DNA from: a virus
Strand: one strand, 5' to 3'
Virus record (IMG/VR): IMGVR_UViG_3300046167_000189
Span: 1 to 34,442 of that record
DNA: 34,442 nucleotides
Below are positions 2,725 to 22,611 of the stretch, one piece after another; the first letter of the stretch is position 1; the number at the start of each line of letters is the position of its first letter. Below the pieces are notes generated by a model that worked only from the letters and a program-made list of their open reading frames with translations, was not told where the DNA came from and made no database searches. Position numbers and translations under genes: made by a program.

Positions 2725-4845
2725 TTAAGATTTTTTAAGACCATAAACTTTAATAGTACCGGCTTGAAAATCTCCTGAGCCTATGTTCAAGGTAATGCCA
2801 TCTATAGCCCCTGAGTCACCTTGGTTGCCTATCAAAAATTTAAGCCAAGGCGTTCCTGATGAATTTACAGGAAAAGACATTTGAGACTGAAAAAGCTGAC
2901 TTCTTCCTTGTGAAGATGTTGTATTTGCGCTGTTAATTTCTACAAAACCTGAACAGTACATTCCTGTTTGAGTAACACTTCCAATTCTTCCAATAACAAA
3001 TCCCTGAGTGTTTGTAGTATCGTTAATTGTAGTGTCAGCAGTTTCAAAAGAAGTAGTTTTATAGTTGGTTGTTTTATTAGCGCCGCCTTTTCGTAGCCAA
3101 AACTCAAAATCAACAGGGCTAAAATTAGTAGAATCTAATCCGTCAAAATGTATTCGATAATTATCATAGGTCGAAGAAAAAGGACTTGTGATGACAATAA
3201 AAGAAGACTGTGACGTAATTGTTGTAGTATGCAATAACTCCCAAGCACCGCCACCCGCAGGAGCAGCTGAAGTCCAAGCAGAGCCGTTAGAAGTTAATAC
3301 ATTTCCTGATGTTGATGGAGCTACGTAACCCAAAACGCTTGAGCCAATATCACTATCTACGACTACATTGCTTCCTCCATTTTGGAGAGTGCCTGTAAAG
3401 TTAGCAGTTGTGTCGTCATACTTTGCTGTGTCGGCATCGTAAGCCTGAACAGTTACGCCAATGTCAGCATCTTTTAGGATAGTGGCATCGGCGGGCTCTT
3501 TGTTGTCTAACTGAGTCTGAATCGCGCTAGTCACGCCGTCCGTGTAGTTTAGCTCGGTAGCCGTGGCAGTAAGGTCGGAGATTTGACTGACAGTCACACT
3601 TGTCGCGACAGGAGCTACATCTACCCAAGCAGAGCCTGAGTACACCTTCATTGAATTAGACGCTGTGTTAAAGTACAAAGCACCTGTAAGTAGTGCGTCA
3701 CCGTCATTGTCTACTGAGGGGTCAGAGGCTTTCTGTCCCAAGTAGCGGTCATCAAAGTTATCGTAGCTTGTTGCTGCTTCGCTTGCCGAACTTGCAGAAG
3801 CAGAGGCAGAGGCAGAAGCGTTAGTTTCTGAAGTAGACGCTGCACTTGCAGAGCTTGCCGCTGCTGTAGCACTGTTAGCCGCTGCTGTAGCCGATGCAGC
3901 AGCACTTGTAGCCGAGCCTAAGATAGAGTCTGTGTAGGCTTTAGTCGCTACATCCTGAGCCGCTGTGGGGTCGCCTGCTCCTGTTATCTTGTTAGTCCCC
4001 ATTGCAATAGCACCGGACATTGTACCGCCTGTAGTGCTTAGCTTAGTCGCGTCTTGGGTGTCTACATAGGTCTTAGTTGCTGCGTCCTGTGCAGAAGTAG
4101 GATCGCCAAGACCTGTAATCTTAGCCGTACCCATTGCTATTGCGCCCGTCATCGTACCACCGGACAGGTTTAACTTACCCGCGAGGGAGTTAGTCATAGT
4201 GGTAGAGAAGTTGGCATCGTCACCTAGCGCAGCAGCTAACTCATTCAGAGTGTCTAGCGCGGCAGGAGCAGCAGCAATAACATTGGAAACTGAGGTGTCT
4301 ACATAAGCCTTATTAGCCGCGTCAGAGTCTGCGGTAGGCGTAGAGATGTTGGTTAGCTTGGTGTCTGTAAAGTCTACAGTGCCATTAACCACGAGGTTGT
4401 TAACTGTAGTCGTACCCGTGGAAGCTGTAAGGTTACCTGTAACATCGCCTGTCAGATCGCCTGTGACGTTGCCTGTGACGTTTCCTGTAAGGTTGCCTGT
4501 GACATCACCCGTTAACCCACCAACAAAGCCTGTGTTAGCTGTGACTGTAGTACCTGTGATAGCTAAAGGTGTAGAGCCGCCAATGACGACACCGTTAACA
4601 GTGCCGCCTGTCAGAACTGCGTTGCTAGATGCAAAAGTACCGTTAGCGGTTAGAGTTCCGGTAACGGTAGCTGTGGCTGTAGTGATGGTAGAAGGGTTAG
4701 TACCCAACTCTACAATCTGTGTAGACGCATTCTCTGTGAAGATGCGTTTGTCTGCTACGTTGACAGCGAGTTCGCCCTGAACCAAGTCACTCGTAGTTGG
4801 GACGGCTGAGGCGGTAGAGCTGTTCTTGGTTACTATCGTTGCCAT
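2725..4845 (-). CDS. Tail fibre protein
   Basis: 706 aa, starting at ATG 4845 with AGGAA upstream. The N-terminus (about 1-60) is the conserved phage fibre head. Residues about 111-140 are a run of GDVTGNLTGN-type repeats. At about 175-300 come two or three copies of the fibre repeat (AAxKxYVD, LSGGTMTGAIAMGTxKITG, GDPTxAQDxATK). An Ala/Ser-rich predicted coiled stem (about 310-350) carries segments such as SATAAANSATAAASSASAAS. The C-terminal 170 residues form a beta-rich domain beginning GGGAWELLHTTT, with a likely receptor-binding tip. This is the host recognition protein. The repeats make the gene prone to recombination. The antisense open frame at 4346-4780 is a shadow of the repeats. 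Confidence 0.93.
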   Translation of the reverse strand: MATIVTKNSSTASAVPTTSDLVQGELAVNVADKRIFTENASTQIVELGTNPSTITTATATVTGTLTANGTFASSNAVLTGGTVNGVVIGGSTPLAITGTTVTANTGFVGGLTGDVTGNLTGNVTGNVTGDLTGDVTGNLTASTGTTTVNNLVVNGTVDFTDTKLTNISTPTADSDAANKAYVDTSVSNVIAAAPAALDTLNELAAALGDDANFSTTMTNSLAGKLNLSGGTMTGAIAMGTAKITGLGDPTSAQDAATKTYVDTQDATKLSTTGGTMSGAIAMGTNKITGAGDPTAAQDVATKAYTDSILGSATSAAASATAAANSATAAASSASAASTSETNASASASASASSASEAATSYDNFDDRYLGQKASDPSVDNDGDALLTGALYFNTASNSMKVYSGSAWVDVAPVATSVTVSQISDLTATATELNYTDGVTSAIQTQLDNKEPADATILKDADIGVTVQAYDADTAKYDDTTANFTGTLQNGGSNVVVDSDIGSSVLGYVAPSTSGNVLTSNGSAWTSAAPAGGGAWELLHTTTITSQSSFIVITSPFSSTYDNYRIHFDGLDSTNFSPVDFEFWLRKGGANKTTNYKTTSFETADTTINDTTNTQGFVIGRIGSVTQTGMYCSGFVEINSANTTSSQGRSQLFQSQMSFPVNSSGTPWLKFLIGNQGDSGAIDGITLNIGSGDFQAGTIKVYGLKKS

Positions 4846-5184: not shown

Positions 5185-6138
5185 TTAGCCGTTTACAGCA
5201 AGAACGAAACCGCTGTCAGGGCGGTAAGCCTTAACACCGTACAGAGTGTCAGCAGTGTACAGAGTACCGAGGAACTCTTGCTTGTACTGAGTCTGCGAAC
5301 GAACACCTACTTGCTCCGCGAGGATCATAGTGTCCTGATGGATAAGCATTGCTGCCTTAACATCGCCACCCGCTGAGTTATCAGCAGCAGCCTCGATGAC
5401 AGGGCAGTTAGAAGTAACGAATACGTCAATGCCGTACAGGCTACCGATCTTACCGTTAGCAACAGGCTGACCGCTTACGAAGTCAGAAGATACATAACGG
5501 TCAATGCCCATGATGGCATTACGCAGTGAAGGAGGAATAACAAAACAACGGTTATCCATAGGAACGTCCGCGTCATCCTGCTTCTGAATCAACTCACGGA
5601 ATGCAGCGTCAGTGAATACGTCAGCAGCAGCAACAGTGTCAGCAGCGTAAGCAGTCAGACCTGTAGATGCGTCATTGTAGAAGACAGCAGAGTTAGTCCA
5701 ATCAGAACCATCGCCGTCACCAAGTGACTTACCGAGGTCAAACAGATCAGTATCAATCTGCTTAGCAAGCGCGTAACCCGCGTCACCTGTGTAGAAGTTA
5801 CGGAGTGAAGCAAGAGCCTGCACTTCAGTAATATCTTCGATGATGCGTGAGTACTCGTAGTGCTTGTCAATAACAACCTGTACTTCTGACTCAGTGTCGT
5901 TCTGTACAGTTACCGCAGTGTTTTCTGCTTTAGCGTAAGCAGCGCCACGGATAGGAGCAGGAATGTGAATCGTGTCACCTTTCTTGCCGCTCATTGTCAT
6001 TTTCTTTACTAGGTTCGCGAGGATGAGGTTCTTCTCATACGCGGCGCGAATCTCGTCACTCCAAATTTCGGGTACAAAAGTAGCCGCTGAAGTGTTATCT
6101 ACAAAACCGCCAGTAGCGGGAAAAGTTGATGTAGCCAT
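5185..6138 (-). CDS. Major capsid protein
   Basis: 317 aa, starting at ATG 6138 with AGGT upstream. The N-terminal TSAATFVPEIWSDEIRAAYEKN is typical of HK97-fold coat proteins of podoviruses. It is followed by the KGDTIHIPAP segment (N-arm and E-loop region), the KHYEYSRIIEDITEVQAL spine helix region, the P-domain TDAAFRELIQKQDDADVP with CFVIPPSLRNAIM, and a C-terminal GVKAYRPDSGFVLAVNG end. The gene lies just downstream of the scaffold gene, the usual order. It forms the icosahedral shell. The strong hairpin that follows (5154-5175) may raise coat mRNA relative to downstream genes. The HK97 fold is inferred from pattern, not computed. Confidence 0.9.
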   Translation of the reverse strand: MATSTFPATGGFVDNTSAATFVPEIWSDEIRAAYEKNLILANLVKKMTMSGKKGDTIHIPAPIRGAAYAKAENTAVTVQNDTESEVQVVIDKHYEYSRIIEDITEVQALASLRNFYTGDAGYALAKQIDTDLFDLGKSLGDGDGSDWTNSAVFYNDASTGLTAYAADTVAAADVFTDAAFRELIQKQDDADVPMDNRCFVIPPSLRNAIMGIDRYVSSDFVSGQPVANGKIGSLYGIDVFVTSNCPVIEAAADNSAGGDVKAAMLIHQDTMILAEQVGVRSQTQYKQEFLGTLYTADTLYGVKAYRPDSGFVLAVNG

Positions 6139-7426: not shown

Positions 7427-7580
7427 TCTTAGGTCGTCCCCTCTTCTTGGTTTGAGTTTCTTTCAAATCGTGAAGCAAGGAGTTCTGAACTGCCTCTATC
7501 GCCGTGACTCTTTTGTCTAGGCGCTCTAGGATGACGTTGATCTGTTCTACGACCGTTTGTAATTCTCTTTGACTTACCAC
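7419..7580 (-). CDS. 53-aa coiled-coil protein with AT-hook-like tail
   Basis: A short gene starting at GTG 7580, which overlaps the portal stop (TAGTG), and ending inside the next gene's first codons. It reads as a heptad-patterned helix (LQTVVEQINVILERLDKRV, then AIEAVQNSLL) followed by KKRGRPKNG, an AT-hook-like RGRP core. The frame fills an otherwise empty gap between two real genes with overlaps at both ends, which supports it as real. The only upstream SD-like sequence (AAAGG) is far away, so coupling to portal translation is likely. The function is unknown. The small terminase carries the same type of RGRP motif, so DNA contact during packaging is a possible link. Confidence 0.68.
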   Translation of the reverse strand: MVSQRELQTVVEQINVILERLDKRVTAIEAVQNSLLHDLKETQTKKRGRPKNG

Positions 7581-9511
7581 TAGGATATAGCCTTTGCTGC
7601 GTCAAGATTTAGCCTCTTCTCTTTCAGAGCTGTATCTGCGACCTTGAGTCGTCTTTCAAACTCACGATCATCTGCATCGCCCACCTTGAGGTTAGAGGTG
7701 ATGGCTTTGATCTGATCTGTCTCAAGCTCCACAGGGATAGCCTTAGTCTCTGCTGCAATCTTCTGCGCTCTAGCCTGAGACTCGGAAGCCTGACCATTGA
7801 GCGCATTAGTCTGAGACTGTTGGAACGCCATCTGTGCTTGCTGTGCAGCCTGTTGCGCTTGTTGCTGTTCAGGTGAAGGCTGTGAGGCTTGAGCGAGTGC
7901 TTGGATAAGTTCTTCTCTGTTCGAGAGATTCATGTTGTCTATGATGGACTGAATCAATGTCGGATACAGAGGTGAGTCCTGACCCATAGTCTGTAGCAGT
8001 TGTACCAACTGTGTAACCTCGTACTCCCTCGCAATAATCCCGAGAGAAGAGGAGACTTCAAACTGATAGTCCGCGACAGGGTAGAGTTCAGGCTCGAACT
8101 GCATGTAACGGTAAGCAGCCTTCTGTACGAACGGAATCAAGAAAGACTCTTGGAAGTTAATCAGTGTACGTTTGTGACGCTTAATGATTGCGCCAAGAGA
8201 CATTGAGATGCCTGCGGCTGTGGATTCACCATTGATAGACCCCGGAATACCCGCAGAGTCTATAGCGCCTGTGGCAGTCTGAACCATCTTCTGCAACTCA
8301 CCCGCTTGTGCGAAGGTGATTTGGTTGACTTGTCCGAAGTTAAACGGCTGTAGAACCTCGGCAGGGTTACCGTTAGTGAGGATAATCTTACCTGCTTTAA
8401 CTTCCGGTCTTGCCCCTCGGGGTAGACGAGTAGCGTCCATAGCCATCATCGGATGAACTGTGAGTGCTAGAGCGTCAATCCTTGCGCGGAGTTCTGCGTC
8501 CAAGGCTTTCTGTGAGTTATAACCCTTCTCACACACACCCCTTCCCCAAAAACGATTAGGGACTACATCCCACGGGAATGCAATGACGGGTCGGTCATTC
8601 ATCATGTACGGGTTCTTCTCCGCTTTCAGGAGAGTACCACCGTTCGCTATGACCACGATTGCCTCAACATAAAAGGTCTTATCTTCGTCACTTGGTACTA
8701 GCTCTTCAACCTCTTCATACAGGTCGTCATTCTCAAGTAGATGGCGGGGGACTAGACCATAATACTTGGTGAGACGAACCTTATCAGTAGGCTGCGTGGT
8801 AAGTTCGTGGTCTGCATCTAGGTCGATGTCAGGGTAAGCGTAGTTGAACGGTACATCCTTGTAGACTCCCTTTTCTTGCAGGAGTTCTACTTGGTGAGAA
8901 GATACGAATTCGTCAATAGCTACACCGATGGCTTCATCTACACTTGTAGCCACGGGGTCAATTAGGAAGTTCTGTGGTTGGATGCTGCGGAGTTTACACA
9001 CAGTGCGGTCGAACATCTCTACGCCGACCTCCTGTAGCTGTCCGTCCATTGTAGGACGCGAGGCAGGACGCATGTCCTTTTTCTCCTCAAGGACTAGCTC
9101 AGCAATACCAGTACCGTAGACAGCAGAGTTAATCAAACACTCACCCACTGCTTTGCGGACTTTGTTCTTCTTGAAGTCTTTAGTCAGTTGGTCGCGAAGG
9201 TAAGCGACATCTGCTGTTTCTTGGTCGTCATCCTTAATATCAAAGAACTTGCCACGACCAAAGGTCGCTTCCTCAATCTCTGCGACAGAAGATTCTACAG
9301 CTTGTTGAAGGGCGGGGGATATGATCTGCGAGCGTTCTGAATCCCTATTGCGATCCTCAGAAGAGAAGATGCCACGCCATAGACGGTAGTATTCATCGAA
9401 CTTAGTTTCATAGTTCGACTCGTAATGGTCGCGCCACTCGCGGCACTTCTCCATAACCCAAGACTCTAAAGTCTCTTCTATGCCGAATGTATCTTCATTG
9501 CTATCTAGCAT
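7580..9511 (-). CDS. Portal protein
   Basis: 643 aa, directly downstream of the large terminase (one base gap). It has the layout of large podoviral portals: an N-terminal SWVMEKCREWRDHYESNY region, NRDSERSQIISPALQQAVES, the wing and stem domains with IDPVATSVDEA and NRFWGRGVCEKGYNSQKALD, and a crown or barrel region rich in Gln (about 540-590, QQQAQQAAQQAQMAFQQ). Twelve copies form the ring at the capsid vertex through which DNA is packaged and leaves. The gene order terminase-portal-scaffold-capsid agrees. Start ATG 9511 with GGGATA upstream. The Q-rich C-terminal helix is typical of portals with a long barrel. Confidence 0.92.
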   Translation of the reverse strand: MLDSNEDTFGIEETLESWVMEKCREWRDHYESNYETKFDEYYRLWRGIFSSEDRNRDSERSQIISPALQQAVESSVAEIEEATFGRGKFFDIKDDDQETADVAYLRDQLTKDFKKNKVRKAVGECLINSAVYGTGIAELVLEEKKDMRPASRPTMDGQLQEVGVEMFDRTVCKLRSIQPQNFLIDPVATSVDEAIGVAIDEFVSSHQVELLQEKGVYKDVPFNYAYPDIDLDADHELTTQPTDKVRLTKYYGLVPRHLLENDDLYEEVEELVPSDEDKTFYVEAIVVIANGGTLLKAEKNPYMMNDRPVIAFPWDVVPNRFWGRGVCEKGYNSQKALDAELRARIDALALTVHPMMAMDATRLPRGARPEVKAGKIILTNGNPAEVLQPFNFGQVNQITFAQAGELQKMVQTATGAIDSAGIPGSINGESTAAGISMSLGAIIKRHKRTLINFQESFLIPFVQKAAYRYMQFEPELYPVADYQFEVSSSLGIIAREYEVTQLVQLLQTMGQDSPLYPTLIQSIIDNMNLSNREELIQALAQASQPSPEQQQAQQAAQQAQMAFQQSQTNALNGQASESQARAQKIAAETKAIPVELETDQIKAITSNLKVGDADDREFERRLKVADTALKEKRLNLDAAKAIS

Positions 9512-9512
9512 A

Positions 9513-10760
9513 TTAGTATCCCGAAACAGAATCTATGACTTCGTAGTCATCAATTTCAAAGTCATAAGCGTAGGACACAGTAGCCAACTGATCTATGTAG
9601 GCTAGTGCGTCCACCATGTCATCGTGTGTTAGAGCATCAGGGAATTGAAATATCTCGTCTAAGAATTGGACATTCCACTCGCCTTTGTTTAAGGTACAGA
9701 TGCCATTCTCAAACCTGCCCTGTAACGCCCACATTACACGGTCTGTCTTCTTCTTGTTTCCGTGGGTCAACTCTTCTACACGGAAGAAACGCTGATATTT
9801 CCTCATAAGATCGGTAAGCGGAGACATCACAGCCTGACGGGCTATGCCTTTCTCTATACCGACTGAGACGGGTTCGTAGTCCCTAACAACCTGAAATATC
9901 TTCTGGGCAGTCTCGTTCAACTCCCAACGTCCGGCTATTATATCACAAACCCACCATCCATATTCGCCGACTTTTACTACAGCTATGGCAGTGTTGTCAA
10001 GTTTCTTGTTTTTGGTCTTTTTCCCGACCTCCTCAAAGCCCGCGAGGTCAATGGCGACATAGTAGTCACCTGTAGTCGGCTCTTCCTCGTCAAACTTAAT
10101 CCAATCCTCTTTGAACATCTCAGAGCCTCTAGCCTCGAAGGAGGCCATGAATTCCTGACGGAAGGCATAGGAGGACATCCCTGCTTTCGCAGCGTTAATC
10201 TCTGCTTCGTCTAGTAAGTCATTGTCGTAACTTGTAAAGTGCCATGCCTTAAACGTGGGGTCTGTGCCTAAACTGGCTTGTTTGTAGAGTTCATAGAAAT
10301 GATTTCTACCCATTGGTGTCCCGATAAATAAGGCTTCTCCTTTCAGGTCTGTCAACGCAGGTCTTAAAATCAACTCCCATACATCGGGCTTCATGTCTGC
10401 GTATTCATCCAAGACAAGAAACTTAAGACTTACACCGCGCATAGTCTCAGGTCTGTCCGCACCTTTCAAGCTAATGGTAGTTCCGTTGACTAGCTTGACC
10501 TGCATGTTGTTGACATGAGAGGAGTCTATAACGGGTTGACCTATCTCCAAGAGGAGATTCCACATAATGTCCCTAGCCTGACCCTGAGTAGGGGCGACAT
10601 AGAACACCTGCCCTCTATCAGACTTCAAAGCGTTGACGATCAAAAGGTAAGCCGCCAGACGAGACTTGCCCGTCCGACGACCCGCAGCAACCACCTTGAA
10701 ACGTGTGGGGTCGTTCCAAACTTTCTTCTGCCACTCTAGGAGACTTATGTTTAGGTTCAT
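9513..10760 (-). CDS. terL: Terminase large subunit
   Basis: 415 aa. This is the packaging motor ATPase and nuclease. Visible motifs: adenine-binding Q and WQKKVW near 9-15; Walker A AAGRRTGKS at 25-33; Walker B LKFLVLDE with Asp118-Glu119; coupling motif GTPMGRNHFYEL at 147-158; RNase H-like nuclease residues Asp238 in YYVAIDLAG, Glu303 in VGIEKG, and the DALTHDDMVDALAY cluster at 375-388. It works with the portal and small terminase to fill the prohead and cut the DNA. The length is slightly short for the family but all motifs are present. It overlaps the DUF5872 gene upstream by four bases (10757-10760). Confidence 0.95.
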   Translation of the reverse strand: MNLNISLLEWQKKVWNDPTRFKVVAAGRRTGKSRLAAYLLIVNALKSDRGQVFYVAPTQGQARDIMWNLLLEIGQPVIDSSHVNNMQVKLVNGTTISLKGADRPETMRGVSLKFLVLDEYADMKPDVWELILRPALTDLKGEALFIGTPMGRNHFYELYKQASLGTDPTFKAWHFTSYDNDLLDEAEINAAKAGMSSYAFRQEFMASFEARGSEMFKEDWIKFDEEEPTTGDYYVAIDLAGFEEVGKKTKNKKLDNTAIAVVKVGEYGWWVCDIIAGRWELNETAQKIFQVVRDYEPVSVGIEKGIARQAVMSPLTDLMRKYQRFFRVEELTHGNKKKTDRVMWALQGRFENGICTLNKGEWNVQFLDEIFQFPDALTHDDMVDALAYIDQLATVSYAYDFEIDDYEVIDSVSGY

Positions 10761-12409: not shown

Positions 12410-12457
12410 CCCAAACCCAACCCCCCTAAACCCAGACCCTGACCTAAACCCTGACCC
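12410..12457 (-). repeat. Telomere-like C-rich repeat and G-quadruplex motif B
   Basis: Seven runs of three to six C within 48 bases on the plus strand, spaced by AAA, AA, TAAA, AGA, TGACCTAAA and TGA. The minus strand reads as GGGTTTGGG, GGGTTTAGG and GGGTCAGGG style repeats, like degenerate telomere repeats. It can form a G-quadruplex on the minus strand or an i-motif on the plus strand. Confidence 0.6.
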
Positions 12458-12718
12458 TGACTATATATCAGACCCCTATCACCGACCCCTGAATATATTA
12501 AATAAACCTATATCCCCCTGAGAGGCTCAGAGAGGCCGTTTAAGCGATTCTAGCCTTGCCCCTTGCCGTGGTATTGGTTGGGGGTCGATCGTTCAATAGG
12601 CAGAAATCGCTGTATATCCATCCAGTAGTTTCCCCCTCTGAAGTGTTCCTTCTATATAGGCGCAGTTCAGCTTCAATACGGCCTACCAAAATTGATACAA
12701 AATGATTCCAATTCGTTG

Positions 12719-12746
12719 TTGTAATTAATAACAAGGCAGATATACT
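12719..12746 (+). promoter_or_regulatory. Candidate sigma-70 promoter toward early genes
   Basis: TTGTAA at 12719-12724 and TATACT at 12741-12746 are separated by 16 bases. The -10 box matches five of six consensus bases and the -35 four of six. It would give a leader of about 310 bases before the first early gene, containing an inverted repeat and hairpins. This is a weak prediction; no promoter is visible closer to 13066. Confidence 0.35.
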
Positions 12747-12981: not shown

Positions 12982-13013
12982 TGGTCAATACAAATTGACG
13001 CTAGTTGTATCAA

Positions 13014-13040
13014 CTGAGCGCGTTCTGCTGAGCGCGTTCT
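13014..13040. repeat. 13-bp tandem direct repeat upstream of the early genes
   Basis: CTGAGCGCGTTCT occurs at 13014-13026 and again at 13028-13040, one base apart, followed by a partial ACTGAAC. It directly follows the small palindrome AGTTG-TAT-CAACT (13003-13015). It ends 25 bases before the first early ATG. This could be an operator or a replication iteron; two copies only. Confidence 0.55.
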
Positions 13041-13065
13041 ACTGAACCAACTGGAGGATAAAACA

Positions 13066-13260
13066 ATGCAAAACTTGAGAATAGTATTTGAAGACAGCGG
13101 GTATTTCTTTACTGGCCTAATGATAGCGAGCGACCTGAATGACGACACTCGCGCATTGATGCAAGTCGATCCCGAATATGCCGACCCTGACGGGGCTGAC
13201 TTGTTCTGGGTCAATACCGAGTACACCTATCCAGAGAGCGAACTAGAGGAGGAGTTTTAG
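13066..13260 (+). CDS. Highly acidic 64-aa early protein
   Basis: The first rightward gene, with a strong GGAGG nine bases before ATG. The protein has 16 Asp or Glu and only two Arg, no Lys, and ends SELEEEF. It is too short for recognised domains. Being the first expressed gene and lying next to ArdC, a DNA-mimic anti-restriction or host-takeover role is plausible, since such proteins (for example Ocr, ArdA) are small and very acidic, but no homology is claimed. Its stop is two bases from the next ATG. Confidence 0.8.
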   Translation: MQNLRIVFEDSGYFFTGLMIASDLNDDTRALMQVDPEYADPDGADLFWVNTEYTYPESELEEEF

Positions 13261-13262
13261 AA

Positions 13263-13469
13263 ATGAAATATTTCGAGCTAGAAATGCAAGGCGAGCATCT
13301 GCGAGTCGAGTGGAACGAAAAGGCAACCTTTAACATTCAATGCCCAGTGGGAGGGGACTGGGTAGACTTTAATTGTTTCACTTGCTACGGGATAGACAGC
13401 GAGTACGAAGCACTAGAGACCGCGTACGAATGGATAAACCAGAATATATTTGAATTTTCGGAGGCATGA
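13263..13469 (+). CDS. Acidic 68-aa early protein
   Basis: 68 aa, 14 acidic against three basic residues, with aromatic residues (Trp, Tyr, Phe) and three Cys (in NIQCPVG and FNCFTCYG). The ribosome binding site GAGGAG lies about ten bases before ATG, inside the end of the upstream gene. It sits between another acidic protein and ArdC. The C-terminal part (SEYEALETAYEWINQNIF) looks like an amphipathic helix. Function unknown; membership of the anti-defence group is inferred from position and charge. Confidence 0.8.
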   Translation: MKYFELEMQGEHLRVEWNEKATFNIQCPVGGDWVDFNCFTCYGIDSEYEALETAYEWINQNIFEFSEA

Positions 13470-13472
13470 GCA

Positions 13473-14357
13473 ATGGCTAAAGTAGACGTATATCAAGAAG
13501 TTACGGACAAAATTATTGAACTGATGGAAACCCATGGTACGAACTGGTGCAAGCCATGGGCAGGGGGAGGACTAGCGAGCGGCATGCCGTTCTCTGTGAC
13601 CAGCAAGGCAGCGTATAGCGGAATCAATGTAGTGCTGCTGTGGGCTGCTGGGTACAGCTCAAGCGAATGGGGAACTTTCAAGGCATGGCAAGCCAAAGGC
13701 GCGAAGGTTAAGAAAGGCGAGAAAGGAACGCCGATTATATTTTTCAAGCAGTTACGAGTGAAGGACGAGGATACCAAGGAAGTAAAAAATATCCCGATGA
13801 TAAAACAGTTCTATGTATTCAACGCGCAGCAAGTGGAAGGATACGAACCCCCTGAAGTGGAGGAGCTAGAACCCCTCACCCTGCTGGATAACGTGGAGGA
13901 TTTCGTGACCAATACAGGGGCGAAGGTTCATCAAGTAGCAGGCGACCAAGCATTCTACCGACCATCAACGGACGACATAACTGTCCCCCTGCCCGCTCAG
14001 TTCAAAGGAGAGACCGAAACCGAGCGGCTGCATGGATACTACGGGACTCTGCTGCACGAGCTGACTCACTGGACTGGCTCAAAGAAGAGACTGGACAGGT
14101 TCGCCCCCAAGAATGGCGAGTCACTCAAGGAAGCCTACGCGAAGGAGGAGCTAGTCGCAGAACTAGGCGCAGCGTTCCTGTGCGCTGAGCTGGGAGTCTC
14201 AAGCGAACCCCGAGAGGATCACGCCAAGTACCTCAACGGCTGGCTCAAGGCTCTTAAGGATGACAAGAAGCTGATCGTGAAGGCAGCGAGCAATGCGCGC
14301 AAGGCTTGCGAGTTTGTCAAGGAACTACAACCCAAGGCTGTCGAAGAGGCAGCGTAA
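13473..14357 (+). CDS. ardC: ArdC-like anti-restriction protein
   Basis: 294 aa. The N-terminal domain (about 1-125) is the ArdC/DUF1738 single-stranded DNA-binding domain, with NWCKPWAGGG, PFSVTSKAAYSGINVVLLW, WGTFKAWQAKGAKVKKGEKG and a central FKQLRV strand. The C-terminal half is a zinc metallopeptidase-like domain with HELTH at 195-199, followed by TGSKKRLDRF, and the third ligand region EELVAELGAAF at 225-235. The family protects incoming DNA from type I and some type II restriction. The gene follows two acidic small genes and has GGAGG-C-ATGAGCA before its ATG. The early, leading position fits a role immediately after injection. Family assignment is firm; whether the peptidase site is active is unknown. 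Confidence 0.93.
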   Translation: MAKVDVYQEVTDKIIELMETHGTNWCKPWAGGGLASGMPFSVTSKAAYSGINVVLLWAAGYSSSEWGTFKAWQAKGAKVKKGEKGTPIIFFKQLRVKDEDTKEVKNIPMIKQFYVFNAQQVEGYEPPEVEELEPLTLLDNVEDFVTNTGAKVHQVAGDQAFYRPSTDDITVPLPAQFKGETETERLHGYYGTLLHELTHWTGSKKRLDRFAPKNGESLKEAYAKEELVAELGAAFLCAELGVSSEPREDHAKYLNGWLKALKDDKKLIVKAASNARKACEFVKELQPKAVEEAA

Positions 14358-14572: not shown

Positions 14573-14929
14573 ATGCAATCAAAACTAACTAACGCTACAT
14601 TGAAGAGCATCAAAGAAGCACGAGCAGCAGTAATGGAATCAGTAAGAAGCAGCGGTCGAGGAGGCTATGTAACAGACGGAGGCTACTGGTATATCAAGAC
14701 CCTTGATCGCAAGGACGGAGACCATGAGCTGCTGTTAGACGGATACGGCAGCATCCGAAGCAAAGATATTCAAAAGGCTCTGGCTCTCAGGGGTGACCAA
14801 GATGTTTGGATTGAGGGGCAGGTAGACTGGCATGCCAACCTCAGAGACTACATCGAAGGCAATACGGACTGGAGTGCAGGTGACCTTACTGAATACTGGA
14901 CTGTAGTTTTAGCAGAGGAGGTGCAGTAA
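14573..14929 (+). CDS. Unknown 118-aa early protein
   Basis: Follows the 56-aa gene by two bases; GGAG lies upstream of the ATG. The protein begins with a helical basic part (LKSIKEARAAVMESVRSSGR) and continues with an aromatic, acidic part (GGYWYIKTLDRKDGDHELLL, VWIEGQVDWHANLRDYIEG). No membrane or signal segment. No recognised motif. Its stop overlaps the next start by one base, so the two are coupled. Function unknown. Confidence 0.75.
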   Translation: MQSKLTNATLKSIKEARAAVMESVRSSGRGGYVTDGGYWYIKTLDRKDGDHELLLDGYGSIRSKDIQKALALRGDQDVWIEGQVDWHANLRDYIEGNTDWSAGDLTEYWTVVLAEEVQ

Positions 14930-18691: not shown

Positions 18692-18915
18692 TTAAGCGAG
18701 GCGTAGACAAGAACGGCATACAGTGTGGAGGATGCGAGAAAAGAATCTCAACACGCTACATGCTATGCGAAGATTGTAAAAATCATTATGACAAACTCAA
18801 TAAATTGTGGAGGACGCATGGACGATCCTGTAATCGTGGACTTAAACAGGTACTTGCTAGAGCAGGAAGAAGCATTAGACGAAGAGGAGGAGCTACTGGC
18901 ACAGCAGTATCGTGA
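18688..18915 (+). CDS. Small zinc ribbon protein, paralogue of 21200 gene
   Basis: 75 aa from GTG 18688, overlapping the ERF stop (GTGA). Zinc ligands: C13, C16 (QCGGCEK) and C27, C30 (MLCEDCKNHY), followed by DKLNKLWR at 35-42. The codons for Leu-Trp-Arg (TTG TGG AGG, 18805-18813) form the Shine-Dalgarno of the next gene, four bases before its ATG. The last 33 residues are a basic out-of-frame stretch inside that gene and may be incidental. A second gene at 21200 has the same architecture. Function unknown, probably a small regulator. Confidence 0.65.
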   Translation: MIKRGVDKNGIQCGGCEKRISTRYMLCEDCKNHYDKLNKLWRTHGRSCNRGLKQVLARAGRSIRRRGGATGTAVS

Positions 18916-19033
18916 CCGTTACGTTGCTGCTCAAAACATCTTGAAGGCTGACATCTCTGAAGACATGAAGATCAGACGCTTGATCTCATGGGTAGAGGAT
19001 GAAGTTGAGGAGGGTCAGGGTGCGTATTTCTAA
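18818..19033 (+). CDS. Acidic 71-aa helical protein
   Basis: Start at ATG 18818 (MDDPVIVDLNRYLLEQEEAL) chosen because GGAGG lies four bases before it; the upstream extension to 18725 is a shadow of the zinc ribbon gene. The protein is a charged helix with a heavy Glu/Asp run (EQEEALDEEEELLAQQY) and ISWVEDEVEEGQG near the end. It overlaps the upstream gene by 98 bases and the exonuclease gene by 14. The function is unknown; a binding partner of the exonuclease or ERF is a possibility only. Confidence 0.75.
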   Translation: MDDPVIVDLNRYLLEQEEALDEEEELLAQQYRDRYVAAQNILKADISEDMKIRRLISWVEDEVEEGQGAYF

Positions 19034-21929: not shown

Positions 21930-22384
21930 AGCGAGGCACAGTGAGGCGTGAGAAGCGCAAGTCAAAGCCTAAGACCAAGACCTCGGCTCAGCTCAAGCAG
22001 GAATGCTACAAAGCTGTACAAAAATTAGCCAGACTCGCGGCAAGTGATGACAATGGCTACTGCTCTTGTGTGTCTTGTGGTGTGACTAAGCACTACAAAG
22101 ACATGCAGGGTGGACACTTCATCCCCAAAGGCAACTCATCCTACTGGTCTTTAGAGATAGAGAATGTTCATCCTCAGTGTCCTGCTTGTAATATGTGGGG
22201 CATGAAGCATGGCTCAGCAGCGCAGGAGTACACGCTGTTCATGGAGGATATGTACGGCAGGGACTTTGTTGAAGAGATGATCGCCATGAAAGCTACGCCG
22301 ATCAAAAGATACAAGGCAGACTACGAAGAGATACTGGCTGAGTTTAACAAGCTCATTGAGTACCACGAGAAGAGGGTCTGCTAA
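21926..22384 (+). CDS. ninG: NinG-like zinc HNH recombination protein
   Basis: 152 aa. Basic N-terminus (MKRGTVRREKRKSKPKTK), then the NinG core: CSCVSCG with Cys48 and Cys51, QGGHFIPKGNSSYWSLEIEN with His64, VHPQCPACN with His82, Cys85 and Cys88. The C-terminus is a long helix. In lambda, NinG (Rap) is a Holliday-junction endonuclease that helps recombination. Overlaps the upstream gene by four bases and the next by one. With NinB, ERF and YqaJ it completes the recombination set. Confidence 0.9.
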   Translation: MKRGTVRREKRKSKPKTKTSAQLKQECYKAVQKLARLAASDDNGYCSCVSCGVTKHYKDMQGGHFIPKGNSSYWSLEIENVHPQCPACNMWGMKHGSAAQEYTLFMEDMYGRDFVEEMIAMKATPIKRYKADYEEILAEFNKLIEYHEKRVC

Positions 22385-22611
22385 TGGATGACGAGCTAGT
22401 ATTTGTCTTTCAGATGATGAGTCTTGACGAGCTAGACGACTGGGTTAATGAGTTCGTCACTGAGTCAGAAGGCAGGGACAGGGATGCTATCTGTACCATG
22501 ACCTTCGCTATGGAGTCTATGTACTCCTTCATCGCAGACAGCGAAGAGAGAATGAACCAGTACAAGATATTTAAGTCACAGTTTAACCCCGAGCAGGAGT
22601 TGTTACATTGA
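22384..22611 (+). CDS. Acidic 75-aa protein
   Basis: Its ATG overlaps the NinG stop (TAATG). Very acidic, rich in Asp, Glu, Met and Phe (MDDELVFVFQMMSLDELDDW, EGRDRDAICTMTFAMESMYS). No motif. It sits before the DUF3310 gene, overlapping by four bases. Function unknown; the charge could mean a protein-binding inhibitor, but nothing supports this further. Confidence 0.75.
   Translation: MDDELVFVFQMMSLDELDDWVNEFVTESEGRDRDAICTMTFAMESMYSFIADSEERMNQYKIFKSQFNPEQELLH

Follow-up and report, generated by a model that had tools for sequence, protein, structure and literature searches.

Are the two small acidic genes that precede an ArdC gene at the head of a phage early operon DNA mimics that belong with ArdC to one anti-defence set, as an earlier note on this DNA had proposed, or are they accessory genes that reach this place independently? 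The sequence analysed is the IMG/VR virus record IMGVR_UViG_3300046167_000189 (34,442 bases, from an aquatic phage; hereafter the window), and the locus in question occupies positions 13066–14357. From its comparison with related phages we think it rather probable that it serves as a modular site for early cargo, in which ArdC would provide anti-restriction while the two small proteins would be independent binders of host proteins and not a fixed set of DNA mimics.

Position and leader of the locus

ORF1 (13066..13260), ORF2 (13263..13469) and the ArdC gene (13473..14357) follow a strand switch and are the first + strand genes of the window's rightward block. Shine-Dalgarno-like sequences stand before all three, and the intergenic gaps are 2–3 nt. 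The leftward block upstream carries terL (9513–10760) and the genes for the portal (7580–9511) and the major head protein (5185–6138); primase-like, DnaB-like, Erf, exonuclease, NinB and NinG/Rap genes come after ArdC on the + strand. We therefore hold with moderate confidence that a tailed phage's early operon begins with 13066–14357, early expression being what the gene order leads us to expect. The earlier description of the three as the first early genes fits this layout, with its strand switch and a promoter-like site kept in relatives, and the coordinates, lengths and acidic and basic residue counts given there for ORF1 and ORF2 were exact. No contig terminal repeats were found in the window, so that a physical ‘leading end’ is not demonstrable for it.

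A candidate sigma-70-type early promoter, TTGTAA-N16-TATACT, lies at 12719..12746 on the + strand. It was picked out by a consensus scan, weak alone at a chance level of 2.2 per region, together with recurrence in relatives: both hexamers are present with equal spacing in two close relatives (L004 and L023) and degenerate in a third (L002), the spacer sequence being variable. About 310 bases 3′ of this site a tandem CTGAGCGCGTTCTR pair within AGTTG/CAACT arms makes a predicted leader hairpin (13001..13054, + strand), which ends on the Shine-Dalgarno sequence and overlaps part of it. The hairpin of the window has a folding energy of −28.3 kcal/mol (z −4.7), and across the window, L002, L004 and L023 the values are −26 to −28 kcal/mol (z −3.9 to −4.8). 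An Rfam search of the leader gave no match. The hairpin may stabilise the RNA, or it may act as a control element or operator. An Frpo-like single-strand promoter is not favoured, given that the stem contains G-U pairs and that the DNA injected by tailed phages is double-stranded.

Sister phages have another constant leader, in which the palindrome CTGTATNNATACNCAG is followed 57 bases on by TTGGCA-N8-GCATTGTA and then by varying first genes. The latter element reads GG-N10-GC, resembling a sigma-54 −24/−12 promoter, and the palindrome can also be read as a LexA-type CTG-N10-CAG box. This leader, which may be an unusual early promoter, was seen at about 20 loci, some of them on the same contig (they include L006 4880–4958, L027 5693–5771, L029, L030, L031, L036, L041, L060, L065 and L066).

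The ArdC homologue

The third gene (+ strand) encodes a protein of 294 aa in which an ArdC-N ssDNA-binding domain and an MPTase-PolyVal gluzincin domain (HELTH ... EELVAE) were recognised from Pfam, PHROG and the structures of the R388 protein. Residues 5–116 match Pfam PF08401 (ArdC-N) with an E-value of 4.9e-34, the C-terminal domain matches PF18818 (MPTase-PolyVal; E 9.8e-43) and the protein is assigned to PHROG 7245, anti-restriction. The R388 ArdC structures 6i89 and 6sna match it over 283 residues (E 2.5e-59), and the zinc ligands are retained, HELTH and EELVAE aligning with HEATH and EELIAE of R388. The earlier call of a full ArdC with an HELTH zinc site was right on each count (both domains, R388 homology, and the HExxH and glutamate-helix ligands), and by sequence homology the protein is a true relative of the plasmid anti-restriction protein.

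The ArdC of R388 binds ssDNA irrespective of its sequence and counteracts HsdRMS, its protease activity being dispensable for anti-restriction (PMC7213743). By homology, the N-terminal domain of the window's protein would bind single-stranded or otherwise exposed phage DNA, and ArdC would in this way shield the phage DNA from host restriction soon after entry. The resemblance to ArdC of plasmids R388/pSa (PDB 6i89, 6sna) extends over the full length, both domains and the zinc ligands, and includes placement in an operon that should act as the DNA enters; unlike the plasmid protein, the present one sits in a phage injecting dsDNA, and its function here is assigned by homology. ArdC probably protects DNA in this phage, by extrapolation from R388, where it acts on conjugating ssDNA.

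Among 50 non-redundant loci, phage ArdC lies at most one gene from a strand switch in 35, versus 43% of the other 200–450 aa genes of the same loci (positions counted with a simple ORF caller); there is thus a tendency for phage ArdC to lie in early operons. In the T7-like Roseobacter phage CRP-804 it comes first (gene 1), and in pelagiphage Hodr, which has the same divergent layout as the window, it is the fifth gene. Public records label such phage homologues ‘MarR family transcriptional regulator’ (CRP-804 gene 1) or ‘DNA primase’, probably misannotations (OR420734.1 1–909; ON529858.1 45906–46772; PP438431.1 5896–6780).

Two small gene families and their charge

Homologues of both retain the protein sequence even as synonymous sites approach saturation. 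Where synonymous sites are unsaturated, dN/dS is 0.065–0.16 among homologues of ORF1 and 0.03–0.14 among those of ORF2, and such low values indicate that both are coding and under purifying selection. In a profile search of 150 sequences both families were found only in the window's group of uncultivated phages. By tblastn, ORF1 had no match in named phages or plasmids; ORF2 had chance-level matches only in named phages and none in plasmids, and its single match in bacterial genomes (L044, in one scan) proved to be an antisense chance match. Searches of Pfam, NCBIfam, PHROG and PADLOC yielded no fitting family for either protein, which bears out the earlier remark that none was recognised for the pair. 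Two hits were too weak for a family claim: ORF2 matched PHROG 3197 (E 0.0024 over 21 residues), and the ORF1 of L004 matched Agenet (E 0.034), although the latter agrees with the predicted fold.

ORF1 (+ strand; 64 aa) has 16 D/E and 2 K/R residues and a net charge of −14; ORF2 (+ strand; 68 aa) has 14 D/E and 3 K/R, net −11. We compared them with 192 clusters of 45–100 aa proteins from related and other ArdC-bearing phages. With a charge of −0.219 per residue ORF1 is the second most acidic of these clusters (about 1%), and ORF2, at −0.162, falls in the lowest 7%. The charge of ORF1 is unusual among small phage proteins and that of ORF2 is ordinary; since 7% of small phage proteins are equally acidic, ORF2 is ruled out as a charge outlier. 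Known mimics have −0.239 (T7 Ocr) and −0.154 (T7 gp5.9) per residue. A negative charge beyond what is usual for small phage proteins, as looked for in a DNA mimic, is thus present in ORF1 and not in ORF2.

The window has further very acidic small early genes at 18725–19033 (a 71-aa reading from 18818, net −13) and 22384–22611 (75 aa, net −13), with per-residue acidity at least that of ORF2. The neighbours of phage ArdC genes have a mean charge of zero on both sides (29 upstream, 33 downstream), and the idea that small acidic genes generally accompany phage ArdC is thereby rejected.

Predicted folds and conserved residues

The AlphaFold2 model of ORF1 (pLDDT 87.6) is a five-stranded barrel, predicted to be SH3/Tudor-like, and aligns structurally with Tudor, Agenet and SH3-like domains, with a probability of 0.99–1.0 and a TM of 0.63–0.73 for the PHF1 Tudor domain (8h43, 4hcz). 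The best E-value in the list of fold matches is 0.066 and no significant sequence match supports the Tudor/SH3 resemblance, which is one of shape only; moreover, the PHF1 domains, unlike ORF1, are eukaryotic histone readers. By sequence position, 14 of the 16 acidic residues lie outside the modelled strands. In alignment A3, which includes the distant short form of ORF1, residues F15, D26, D27, R29, E37, W48, N50 and Y53 are invariant, as are M1 and A21. Together they make a site of both acidic and aromatic character, which resembles a binding pocket more than a spread of diffuse charge.

For ORF2 the model (pLDDT 89.8) has four strands and a C-terminal helix, a predicted bbbb-alpha fold. It found no convincing match in the PDB; its viral matches are all uncharacterised, halovirus ORF10 being the best (E 0.0087). 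The conserved part of ORF2 is the beta core, GxHLRVxWNxKATFNIQ...GGxWVDFxCFTCYGI, rather than the acidic helix. Structure prediction, run for both proteins, placed no known DNA mimic among the 50 best PDB fold matches of either model and so did not favour the earlier suggestion that they are mimics.

Gene-by-gene exchange among relatives

Among the close relatives ORF1 exists as two alleles, A (the window and L002; 81% identical) and B (L004 and L023; 88%), with 55–61% identity between A and B. ArdC likewise has two, 1 (the window and L004; 98% identical) and 2 (L002 and L023; 99%), which are 56% identical to each other. All four combinations are present: A1 in the window, A2 in L002, B1 in L004 and B2 in L023. 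These combinations, together with loci that have ORF1 and ORF2 without ArdC, rule out a fixed three-gene set; the genes that had been grouped as one ‘set’ reassort among relatives.

The comparison of the window with L004 is the closest, the flanking DNA being 94–98% identical on both sides. Relative to the window, L004 is without ORF2, carries the other ORF1 allele and has an unrelated 84-aa gene in place of the 118-aa gene 3′ of ArdC (14573..14929, + strand), which marks a second swap site. A tandem 18-base repeat, CCTAAACCCWGACCCTGA, lies in the intergenic stretch 12425–12460 of the window, where similarity to L004 ends.

ORF2 is mobile within the early region of the relatives: it stands before ArdC in the window, after ArdC in L006 and without ArdC in L027–L031, and most ORF2 loci have no ArdC. 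A short form of ORF1 directly precedes ORF2, again without ArdC, in L031 and L040, and occurs with neither ORF2 nor ArdC in L036, L038 and L041–L043. The long form is followed by ArdC in all five intact loci, 2 nt away unless ORF2 intervenes. The same region in relatives holds a C5 cytosine methylase gene (L060), GP88/DUF7227 or a TreK gene, and in L002 the first early gene, ahead of ORF1 and ArdC, is an extra one (3839–4078) encoding an acidic DUF6926-like protein of 79 aa (net −13; E 0.0057). In the examined stretch ArdC is the only recognised anti-defence gene, with no second one beside it, and in the loci read no methylase, a gene found in one relative, occurred together with ArdC.

Although the first gene varies, the leader is near-invariant in the window, L002, L004 and L023, and an unchanging leader followed by interchangeable genes is the appearance to be expected of a cargo site. 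We propose that the start of the early operon would be such a site, where genes are swapped downstream of a promoter and leader hairpin that stay the same, and that ORF1 and ORF2 would be small early proteins independent of each other, which phages exchange one gene at a time. Their swapping among phages that are nearly identical suggests that the role of ORF1 and ORF2 is optional and host-dependent. Since any accessory gene at an early phage locus may be expected to reassort, reassortment is no proof of an anti-defence role.

Alternative explanations

If ORF1 and ORF2 were DNA-mimic inhibitors of restriction, RecBCD or CRISPR nucleases, in the manner of Ocr, ArdA or gp5.9 and acting beside ArdC, then one would point to the charge density of ORF1, near that of Ocr, and of ORF2, near that of gp5.9, to the acidity retained in diverged homologues, to their early position and to the polyvalent proteins in which ArdA domains are joined to ArdC-N (PMC5512222). 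The commonness of ORF2's acidity among small phage proteins, the neutral company that phage ArdC generally keeps and the lack of any mimic in the top 50 fold matches all weigh against this, as do the conserved residues, which describe a defined site in ORF1 and a beta core in ORF2. We consider mimicry by the pair improbable; it is possible for ORF1, the case for ORF2 is weak, and mimicry is not our favoured explanation. Still less probable is that one or both proteins are partners of ArdC, which might for instance, as an acidic plug or chaperone, occupy the DNA-binding face of ArdC until needed: the constant succession of long-form ORF1 and ArdC speaks for it, but the short form occurs without ArdC at seven loci (L031, L036, L038, L040 and L041–L043), ORF2 does without ArdC in most of its loci, and ORF1 and ArdC alleles are freely exchanged.

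A somewhat better, though still doubtful, prospect is that the two are early regulators or modifiers of host RNA polymerase or translation, with no connection to defence. Regulators and modifiers of RNA polymerase or translation commonly contain SH3-like barrels, many phage early proteins are small binders of host proteins, and the barrel model of ORF1 and the early position of both genes agree with such a role. Against it, neither ORF1 nor ORF2 has a sequence match to a known regulator, and the swaps between near-identical phages speak for a role that depends on the host. Our preferred explanation is the modular cargo site, in which ORF1, as an acidic SH3/Tudor-like barrel, and ORF2, with its bbbb-alpha fold, would bind host proteins in takeover or counter-defence; early takeover or anti-defence cargo of this kind is what they probably are.

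Relation to known loci and implications

The two small protein families are new, and the kind of locus is already known from the T7 gene 0.3 region and from plasmid leading-region islands. As in the T7 gene 0.3 (Ocr) region, the first early genes comprise one anti-restriction gene and uncharacterised small accessory genes; unlike there, the anti-restriction gene is ArdC and not Ocr. ORF1 is close to Ocr in charge density, but, at 64 aa against 117 aa, it is roughly half as long and is modelled as an SH3-like barrel, and no sequence or fold relation between the two was found. In the leading regions of conjugative plasmids an anti-restriction gene, methylases and uncharacterised small genes are clustered at the entry end (PMC11541004). 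The present locus resembles these islands in having anti-restriction and small genes at the early end, with a methylase in relatives, and differs from them in being a phage early operon on dsDNA, in which a recognised anti-restriction function belongs only to ArdC and to the relatives' methylase.

Phages put counter-defence genes at sites that are the first to be read, and exchange of single genes behind a constant leader provides a natural list of candidates: the ORF1 alleles, ORF2, the DUF6926-like gene and the methylase. A more daring and rather unlikely extension is that ORF1 represents a new counter-defence family, an acidic SH3/Tudor-like barrel with alleles matched to host defences, which would travel with ArdC in a modular ‘first-in’ cassette whose constant hairpin leader would allow immediate expression of any inserted first gene. 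If ORF1 blocks no defence, the locus would be ordinary early cargo with ArdC. If it does block one, it would be an anti-defence protein with the SH3-like barrel fold, which our searches did not link to known inhibitors.
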